Assembly (NCBI GenBank): GCA_003226295.1
Contig: CP029803.1
Coordinates: 1,110,211-1,174,210 of the forward strand
Direction of reading: 5' to 3'
Source of the DNA: Candidatus Moanabacter tarae
GTDB lineage: Bacteria > Verrucomicrobiota > Verrucomicrobiia > Opitutales > UBA2987
Length of the DNA: 64,000 bases
A model generated the notes under the pieces. It had not been told where the DNA came from, did no database searches, and was given only the letters and a program-made list of their open reading frames with translations. The position numbers and the translations under genes are program-made. Numbering within the stretch: position 1 is the stretch's first letter; the number at the start of each line of letters is the position of its first letter. Shown here piece after piece: positions 7,092 through 48,263 of this stretch.

Positions 7092-7541
7092 CTATAATGA
7101 ACCATCCGCTTTGTTCACATTTTCTGTTGGTTCCAGCTGTACTCCAGGCCATTGATCGTCACTGGCCGTCACGTCTACCGTAATACCATCAGGATCCTCC
7201 ACTTTAAACGACTCTGAAGGAGGAATTGAGGGGTCATATGCCTTACCACCAGAAACCCCATCCCAGTAAATCCTGAATCCCATTCTTTCCAAACGAGAAG
7301 CTGCCTCGGACAAGTCTGGTACCATAACGCCAATATGTAAATAATCCAGCATTCCACTGACATGCTCAGGACGACTGGGTCCTGAATGCTGAAAGACACG
7401 AAAGTTATGGTAACCATCGGTTAAATCGAAACACCGATCATCAATGATCCCATGAACTTTCAGACCCAAACCATCCCTCCAAAACCGTATCGTCTGGTCC
7501 AATTTTGATGCCCGAACCCCAACGTGAACTAATGTGCTCAT
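7092..7541 (-). CDS. VOC-family (glyoxalase/dioxygenase-fold) protein
   Basis: A small vicinal-oxygen-chelate protein. It opens LVHVGVRASKLDQTIRFW with the first metal-type His, has HIGVMVPDLSEAASRLERMG in the second module, and ends with SFKVEDPDGITVDVT, the usual closing EDPDG motif. I chose the ATG at 7541 because the domain begins directly after it; an in-frame ATG at 7553 and a GTG at 7589 would add 4 or 16 residues of unremarkable sequence. The family includes glyoxalases, ring-cleaving dioxygenases and epimerases, so function stays open. It is divergent from the dehydrogenase at 7698. Confidence 0.82.
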   Translation of the reverse strand: MSTLVHVGVRASKLDQTIRFWRDGLGLKVHGIIDDRCFDLTDGYHNFRVFQHSGPSRPEHVSGMLDYLHIGVMVPDLSEAASRLERMGFRIYWDGVSGGKAYDPSIPPSESFKVEDPDGITVDVTASDDQWPGVQLEPTENVNKADGSL

Positions 7542-7697
7542 TGTTTTATTCATGCTGTTCGAGATTCTACCAACGTTTCGCCTCAACACTCAAGCACGGA
7601 GTATCCCAAACCGGAACAAGCATCTAACTATTCAAAATAAAAACATATTGACATGTCACTTTTGATCGAGCCCTGATTAGAATAACCTATTATTTAA

Positions 7698-46782: not shown

Positions 46783-46982
46783 TACTTGAAACTTTGAAGT
46801 ATTCTATTTCTTCTTTTTTGCGCCTCTTTCAGAGACTTTGTTTTCAAAGTTCGTCGAATCCTTTCCTTCGTATGAGGAGTCGGATGAATGGTGTAGTGAA
46901 TAAACCAGGTCCCATTGTTGTTCCAAAGATGATGAGTCGGATTGCCTGCGTTAATTCGCAATGATGAACATTTATCGTTCAT
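46782..46982 (-). CDS. Small basic protein coupled to cysH, integrase arm-domain-like
   Basis: A 66-residue ORF whose TAA overlaps the cysH ATG, which argues that it is translated. The segment GTWFIHYTIHPTPHTKERIR followed by RTLKTKSLKEAQKRRNRILQ looks like the arm-type DNA-binding domain at the N-terminus of tyrosine recombinases, but no catalytic recombinase domain follows. It could be a small DNA- or RNA-binding regulator of the cysH operon, or an integrase remnant. It starts seven bases after the U-run of the terminator hairpin. Confidence 0.6.
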   Translation of the reverse strand: MNDKCSSLRINAGNPTHHLWNNNGTWFIHYTIHPTPHTKERIRRTLKTKSLKEAQKRRNRILQSFK

Positions 46983-46988
46983 ATTTTT

Positions 46989-47028
46989 ATAAAAAAAAGC
47001 CCCGGAAGTCCTGCTGGACTTCCGGGGC
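46989..47028 (-). terminator. Strong intrinsic terminator/attenuator in the cysH leader
   Basis: Arms gccccggaagtcc (46999-47011) and ggacttccggggc (47016-47028) form a perfect 13-bp GC-rich stem with a 4-base loop. On the minus strand it is followed by eight T (46998-46991), the textbook intrinsic terminator. It lies between a candidate leader ORF and the first gene of the cysH operon, so it acts as an attenuator if transcription starts upstream. No gene on the minus strand ends just before it. Confidence 0.85.
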
Positions 47029-47073
47029 CTAAATTATTGATAATTAATTGCTTAAATCTTAGTGCCTAATCCA

Positions 47074-47163
47074 TTATCCAGCAGTGCTTTTAAAAGGACA
47101 ACACATACAGACGCATACCAACCTTATCCCCACAAGAGCGCATCTGACTGAAAGAATCCTCAT
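47074..47163 (-). CDS. Candidate cysteine-rich leader peptide of the cysH operon
   Basis: A 29-codon minus-strand ORF whose middle reads CVCMCC with Cys codons TGC, TGT, TGT and TGT (a fifth Cys lies at residue 8). A three-codon upstream ORF (ATG TTG ATA TGA at 47171-47160) overlaps its start as ATGA and has GGAAGGAG nine bases ahead. The ORF stops 46 bases before the terminator hairpin. Cysteine-dense leader ORFs upstream of sulfur genes are known attenuators in mycobacteria. The leader function here is inference; chance cannot be ruled out. Confidence 0.5.
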   Translation of the reverse strand: MRILSVRCALVGIRLVCVCMCCPFKSTAG

Positions 47164-47270
47164 ATCAACATGGATTCACTCTCCTTCCCCCGATAGAAGT
47201 CAACTGCTATTCGAATAGAATCGTGTCATAAATAAATCCAATCAATCCCGGATAGCGATTTTGAAAACCG

Positions 47271-47564
47271 ATGAAACCGGAAAAATCCGATAAAGAAAAA
47301 GCCGAGGTAAAAAAGGCTCTTTCCTGCTCGCTAATGAGAATCCCTCGCATGGATATCCACACGGTGCGCGAATTGATGCGAGTAGGATTCACAGAGATCC
47401 ATCAACTTTCTGGACGCTCTCCCGAAGTTATCTTTGAGGAGATTCAGAAATTGGCACCCCGAACTCCCCGAGATCACCTCTTTCACGTCCGAATGGCCGT
47501 ATACTACTCTGAGACTGAGAATCCTAATCCTGAACTTCTCCACCCATGGGCCTGGAAGGATTGA
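47271..47564 (+). CDS. Helix-hairpin-helix protein, Cdd1/pathogenicity-locus-like
   Basis: A 97-residue protein. IPRMDIHTVRELMRVGFTEIH followed by QLSGRSPEVIFEEIQKLAPRTPRDHLFHVRMAVYYSE matches the Cdd1 (PF11731-type) helix-hairpin-helix pattern. Such proteins probably bind DNA or RNA, with no established reaction. It precedes the LON-domain gene by 42 bp on the same strand. Confidence in family is moderate to good. Confidence 0.78.
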   Translation: MKPEKSDKEKAEVKKALSCSLMRIPRMDIHTVRELMRVGFTEIHQLSGRSPEVIFEEIQKLAPRTPRDHLFHVRMAVYYSETENPNPELLHPWAWKD

Positions 47565-47606: not shown

Positions 47607-48263
47607 ATGTTCAAAGACTTCGATATTCCCCGAGAAGTTCCAGTAATGACACTGCCTGATACGGTCTTCTTCCCGCATGTAATCATGCCACTCCTAATCT
47701 TTGAACCCCGGTATCGGAAAATGATTTTTGATGTTCTGGGCAGTAACTGCCTCTTTGCTGTAGCTGGATTGGATAAAAAGGCGGCCGCATCTGAACCCAC
47801 ATCGGAACCACTCTATCAGACCGCGTCACTCGGACTTGTACGTGCGTGCTATAGCAATAAAGACGGGACCTCGAAGCTCTTTCTTCAAGGACTGTGTCGT
47901 ATTAAGATTGACCGAATAGTTCAGGAAAATCCATACCGACTTATCGCCATCACTCCGGTACAAAATCACTATCAGAAAAACGATAACCATCTCGATCCAT
48001 ACCGGCAAAAACTGTTGGAATTACTGGAGGAACTAGGGAGGCTGGGTAACGAATTTTCATTGCAGCTATTGAAATCACTCGAAGTGGTAAAAAACCCTGA
48101 AGTTTTCATCGATCTTGCAGCCGATTCCTTCCAAATTGACCCTATTGATAAACAGAGGATTCTTGAGACCTTCGATACCAAAGCGAGGTATCAATTTTTG
48201 ATTTCCAAAATAGAGTGTATCCGGACGAAGAAAAAAAATGAGGATTTCCTCGGGGAAATCTAG
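47607..48263 (+). CDS. LON substrate-binding-domain protein
   Basis: A 218-residue protein with the N-terminal LON domain (PUA-like): REVPVMTLPDTVFFPHVIMPLLIFEPRYRKMI, LFAVAGLD, GTSKLFLQGLCRIKI. It lacks the ATPase and protease domains of Lon, so is the stand-alone type common in bacteria. These bind unfolded or misfolded proteins or act as regulators; function is not established. It is likely co-transcribed with the Cdd1-like gene. Confidence 0.88.
   Translation: MFKDFDIPREVPVMTLPDTVFFPHVIMPLLIFEPRYRKMIFDVLGSNCLFAVAGLDKKAAASEPTSEPLYQTASLGLVRACYSNKDGTSKLFLQGLCRIKIDRIVQENPYRLIAITPVQNHYQKNDNHLDPYRQKLLELLEELGRLGNEFSLQLLKSLEVVKNPEVFIDLAADSFQIDPIDKQRILETFDTKARYQFLISKIECIRTKKKNEDFLGEI

Follow-up and report, generated by a model that had tools for sequence, protein, structure and literature searches.

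What decides whether the sulfate-assimilation gene cysH is transcribed in Candidatus Moanabacter tarae? In the 64,000-nucleotide stretch of DNA analysed here (the window, to whose minus strand all coordinates refer unless a locus or the opposite strand is named), cysH lies behind a small ORF, a strong hairpin and a short reading frame with a run of cysteine codons, an arrangement for which an initial annotation had proposed ribosome-mediated cysteine attenuation. Cys/Met codon runs, terminators and re-paired antiterminators in the genomes of the family now support this proposal. With a probability of roughly 0.87, we read the leader as a classical ribosome-mediated transcription attenuator that would sense charged tRNA-Cys; the enzyme is probably made only when the supply of cysteine to ribosomes falls short.

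A cysteine-codon leader and a terminator precede a small ORF and cysH

All parts named in the annotation—ribosome site, 3-codon ORF, CVCMCC-encoding ORF, hairpin with U8, and TAATG junction—are present in their places. The leader peptide ORF has 29 codons (47163-47074; MRILSVRCALVGIRLVCVCMCCPFKSTAG), and its codons 17-22 encode CVCMCC through the candidate regulatory series TGC GTC TGT ATG TGT TGT (47098-47115). Against a background drawn from the same genome (ORFs of 10-50 codons on both strands of 104 kb of stretches), it was the sole one of 2,513 short ORFs with at least four Cys in six codons, and again stood alone among them with at least five Cys/Met in eight. We thus found a translated-looking short leader ORF that is rich in codons of the amino acid its pathway makes. 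Upstream, a 3-codon ORF (ATG TTG ATA TGA; 47171-47160) overlaps the leader ORF at ATGA and is preceded by AAGGAG (47186-47181), a candidate ribosome site. Since AAGGAG fits the 3-codon ORF and is too distant for the 29-codon ORF, translational coupling at ATGA would be the simplest route by which ribosomes enter the leader of this genome.

Downstream, a gap of 45 nt separates the leader ORF from an intrinsic terminator (46991-47028), whose hairpin, GCCCCGGAAGUCC-AGCA-GGACUUCCGGGGC (47028-46999), is a perfect, GC-rich stem of 13 bp with an AGCA loop and a folding energy of −28.2 kcal/mol, followed directly by the U8 run (46998-46991). The terminator therefore sits between leader and structural gene, and the combination of leader and terminator exceeds chance. 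Only 8 nt lie between the U-run and the ATG of the first gene behind it, which encodes a DUF6538-like small protein of 66 aa (46982-46782); its stop codon overlaps, as TAATG, the start of cysH (46782-46039), a PAPS/APS reductase gene (PF01507, 1.1e-39; PRK02090, 174.9 bits vs a cut-off of 154). The 'cysH-like operon' of the annotation is better described as small-ORF-cysH.

Could this be a free-standing unit, that is, a small RNA or a gene for a Cys-rich small protein with its own terminator, followed by a separate promoter for the small ORF and cysH? It has a start, a stop and a strong terminator, and the stretch between U8 and the small ORF, TATAAAAAT, is AT-rich. However, the 8 nt available there contain no promoter-like site that we could find, the elements keep their order in front of a sulfur operon in the relatives, and a matched antiterminator (both described below) would serve nothing in such a unit, which makes this explanation very unlikely. 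Nor does the hairpin have another obvious transcript to end, because the upstream neighbour, an ORF of 97 aa that weakly matches Cdd1 (47271-47564), is divergent, on the opposite strand. This Cdd1-like ORF adjoins the gene of a LON substrate-binding domain protein (47607-48263). A second Cys leader was not seen ahead of the cysD, sir or MetY-like gene of the same genome; the best MetY-like match, a 396-aa frame at 885 kb, has no Cys/Met leader, and a search run without a positive control did not find MetX.

The codon run and terminator are conserved ahead of the small ORF

We compared four genomes from two genera, to which a further search for family members added no others; three of them (G001-G003) belong to one sister genus and are therefore not fully independent. 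All four have a Cys/Met codon run and then a strong terminator before the orthologous small ORF. The runs of the relatives read CMMMIMCCC, CMMMMIMCCC and MCLC, the last—with its few regulatory codons—in G001, and their leaders end in FCMMMIMCCCINANSIRMAAP* (G002), ICMMMMIMCCCINQQQEDGCAIK* (G003) and IDMCLCIIQSHKDGCA* (G001). Among 1,240 short ORFs from the loci of G001-G003, two have at least six Cys/Met in eight, matching the two leaders that score seven. GC-rich terminators follow 41-49 nt after these leaders. Aligning the leaders of relatives, as the annotation had suggested, thus recovered the Cys (and Met) runs and the terminator in three of three. The ATGA overlap and the ribosome site were not shared: no Shine-Dalgarno sequence was seen at the leaders of G001-G003, the tiny extra ORF is confined to the M. 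tarae genome, and the leader start regions differ between it and the relatives.

The genes behind the leader differ as well. CysH orthologues of the three relatives are 54-56% identical to that of M. tarae, and none has a leader directly upstream; cysH there lies within an operon, behind the gene for uroporphyrinogen-III C-methyltransferase (SUMT), and the leader lies ahead of the small ORF, some 3.5 kb before cysH. The sister-genus operon comprises the small ORF, sulfite reductase (sir), a CysG N-terminal domain protein, SUMT, CysH, MetY (O-acetylhomoserine sulfhydrylase) and MetX, so the downstream genes make the amino acid that the leader codons call for. A run of Cys plus Met precedes operons whose last genes serve methionine synthesis, and one of mainly Cys precedes cysH alone; the codons therefore match the products. 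The best reading for the sister genus is that the signal would be Cys+Met and the target the whole sulfate-to-methionine operon. A search of contigs with CysH matched only distant gammaproteobacteria, and viral contigs gave no match.

An alternative is that the peptide itself matters, as a nascent-chain or metal/redox sensor whose CXC/CC motifs bind metal or become oxidised. CVCMCC could bind metal, and Met/Cys-rich runs occur in metal-related peptides. Yet what follows the leader is the small ORF with genes of sulfate, Met and Cys synthesis, the peptide beyond the codon run diverges between the genera, and the spacing fits stalling at codons; a sensory peptide is, in our view, extremely improbable. 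At 65-68% identity in the three relatives, the 66-codon ORF rather than cysH is the conserved downstream neighbour.

In a sample of 286 genomes of the class, 104 carried this ORF. Ten of 13 small-protein members show weak similarity to DUF6538, and the AlphaFold (AF2) model of the protein (mean pLDDT 82) consists of three strands and a helix, in the order strand-strand-strand-helix. The weak viral matches of this fold include integrases; sequence and fold searches of the PDB with the small protein returned nothing significant.

An antiterminator in the final leader codons is re-paired between genomes

The annotation had identified no competing antiterminator helix, a gap that closed when we searched each leader, over its whole length, for the ungapped stretch that best complements the 5′ arm and loop of the terminator. 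In all four genomes, this stretch falls within the final codons of the leader ORF, 14-23 nt past the Cys codon that closes the run. In M. tarae, the ungapped pairing is UGCUGGAU with GUCCAGCA, with an extra pair when the helix is extended by one base into the 3′ arm; the last base of the resulting 5′ strand, CUGCUGGAU (47076-47084), is the first of the leader stop codon, and the 3′ strand, GUCCAGCAG (47011-47019), covers the end of the terminator 5′ arm, the loop and the first 3′-arm base. This helix has an energy of −11.7 kcal/mol, with a shuffle p of 0.016 for the part after the Cys run and of 0.007 for the last 30 nt, and its interaction was equalled or bettered in 2 of 500 shuffles. Shuffle p values after the Cys run were about 0.05-0.12 in the other genomes; the antiterminators of G001 and G002, at 0.08-0.12, are modest by themselves.

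The two strands differ between genomes and stay matched: CUGCUGGAU/GUCCAGCAG in M. tarae corresponds to GAA-U-GGCUGC/GCAGCC-UUC in G002 and to GAGGA-C-GGCUGUG/CGCAGCC-UCCUC in G003. Matching extends to loop bases that are free of terminator constraint (UUC with GAA in G002, UCCUC with GAGGA in G003), and the M. tarae strands paired with each other reach −15.8 kcal/mol vs −6.2 to −12.9 when strands are swapped between genomes. Moreover, G002 retains GGCTGCGCC in another reading frame, which argues for a role at the RNA level and points to conservation of GGCTGCGCC as RNA.

With ribosomes represented as masks on leader bases—an approximation—folding of partial transcripts predicted nearly full occupancy of the antiterminator in all four genomes when the mask stood at the last Cys codon, and no antiterminator, with the terminator nucleating at once, when it stood at the stop codon. 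The leaders would accordingly carry an antiterminator whose pairing rules out the terminator and which a ribosome at the stop codon covers, less clearly so in G001 and G002. In every case the finished terminator exceeds the antiterminator in stability, so the switch must be kinetic, as is the decision in known attenuators.

We infer stalling, read-through and the direction of the response from this anatomy. With cysteine plentiful, a ribosome would reach the leader stop codon and cover CUGCUGGAU, whereupon the terminator would form and transcription would end before the small ORF and cysH. With cysteine short, the ribosome would stall at the Cys codons, at least 14 nt upstream of CUGCUGGAU, leaving it free to pair with the emerging top of the terminator 5′ arm and the loop, and the polymerase would read through. 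In the sister genus, the Cys+Met run would control the operon from sulfite reductase to MetY/MetX.

Relation to known attenuators

Classical amino acid attenuators precede the trp, his, thr and ilv genes. The Moanabacter leader resembles them in its leader codons, in a segment masked at the stop codon and in the mutual exclusion of antiterminator and terminator. It differs from them in amino acid and lineage, and in an antiterminator that is short (6-12 bp) and reaches into the terminator loop; a protector hairpin is not established here.

Nearer in amino acid is the uORFC-8-2 motif, a Cys-codon leader ahead of cysS in Rhodobacterales, reported to have tandem Cys codons in a leader ORF followed by an intrinsic terminator and proposed to act by ribosome-mediated attenuation (PMC8632094). 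That motif controls cysteinyl-tRNA synthetase in Alphaproteobacteria rather than sulfate assimilation, and the passage on it describes no Met codons (PMC8632094). As the gene here is the small ORF with cysH and not cysS, we set the leader apart from uORFC-8-2 by gene position, not by its stems.

Mycobacterial cys operons also have runs of Cys codons before cysteine-synthesis genes, in polycysteine leader ORFs without conserved terminator hairpins (PMC1262725); these are described as leaderless ORFs (PMC1262725; Canestrari 2020, as cited). They offer a precedent for Cys-responsive control without an antiterminator, since they may act through Rho or translation coupling (PMC1262725), in which case the hairpin in M. 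tarae would be a plain terminator. This is highly improbable here: unlike the mycobacterial leaders, that of Moanabacter has an intrinsic terminator and an antiterminator, and a strong terminator with its matched antiterminator recurs in four of four genomes. Our preferred reading thus remains attenuation by a ribosome stalled at Cys codons. The literature that we searched, in which subscription journals were thinly covered and whose silence is therefore weak evidence, held no report of such a leader in this lineage, nor of Met-codon leaders.

The leader has probably taken the place of a SAM riboswitch behind a common promoter motif

Outside the family, a SAM-I/IV-like riboswitch precedes the small ORF in 48 of 56 loci (36 of 44, two by eye, plus 12 of 12, two by eye and one of those at a contig end). 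Its core reads CCAACC/GCAACC..GGTGG/GGTGC..GATG. Rfam assigns SAM-I/IV (RF01725) at the same place in six of these loci, all below the curated score, and RNAalifold recovered solely a conserved P3-type stem from a mixed SAM-like alignment. Six loci of family f30 and two others have neither a SAM-like element nor a leader. A filter of four Cys/Met in eight, which the weak G001 leader would fail too, detected no Cys/Met-rich leader in any of the 56.

Conversely, no SAM family appeared among matches up to E=1 at positions 46940-47290 of the window or at 7280-7680 of locus L038, and the leader of Moanabacter's family falls outside RF01725: it occupies the same place before the same small ORF as the riboswitch of related families, which is a ligand-binding aptamer not detected in this leader. 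Elsewhere, the M. tarae genome does carry a SAM-I/IV riboswitch over the cut-off (44.6 bits; L066 15634-15754, G000:C1:545633-545753), ahead of an ORF that, by the impression its sequence gives, resembles homocysteine S-methyltransferase. Two further elements were seen in passing: a TPP riboswitch that narrowly exceeds the curated score on the minus strand of L045 (966-1079), divergent from the small-ORF locus, and two tandem ORFs with identical starts in L036 (17084-18943 and 19108-20000), probably a recent duplication or a mobile element.

Leader and riboswitch loci have their upstream region in common. A promoter-proximal block, TTTATGACACGATTCTATTCGAAT (47209-47232), is conserved before the leader in each of the four genomes; in the form TTTATGACACGRTT..GAAT it has one exact match per genome (G000-G003), exactly upstream of the leader, and a reversed control pattern had no match in these genomes. 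Its TTATGACA/TATGACA form stands upstream of many SAM-riboswitch copies, so that the TATGACA motif is common to both types of locus. TTGACT (47198-47203) is a candidate −35 box; at the matching place, G001-G003 have TTGAC and, 16-17 nt on, GATAAAT/GATAGAA, and a convincing −10 box for the M. tarae leader was not found within the window. The motif TTTATGACA(C), at 47209-47232 and upstream of the small ORF in L053-L063, precedes a −35-like CTTGAC/CTTGC by about 18 nt in both leader-type and riboswitch-type loci; it is possibly the site of a common sulfur-responsive activator.

Judging the direction of exchange from this distribution rather than from a tree, we consider that the Cys/Met-codon attenuator probably took over from a SAM riboswitch before the small ORF in Moanabacter's family; on the simplest reading, sulfur-assimilation genes then came to sit behind it. 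We tentatively suggest, at somewhat less than even odds, that the sensor of a sulfur-responsive small gene was exchanged behind the same promoter motif and that the small protein, whose model resembles an integrase N-terminus, is an unrecognised regulator or effector of sulfur starvation.

Discussion

The mechanism proposed here is already known in kind; the probable sensor exchange is the part that would be new to specialists. To the known attenuators, the locus adds a Cys (and Cys+Met) example, with all its parts, before an operon for sulfate assimilation, in a lineage where our searches turned up no such report. Nature also provides a comparison here, combining one gene and promoter motif with a SAM riboswitch in most families and with a codon-reading leader in one, and this lets one ask what drives the swap of metabolite sensing for tRNA sensing. 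Finally, the locus suggests a part in sulfur control for a widespread but uncharacterised small protein.
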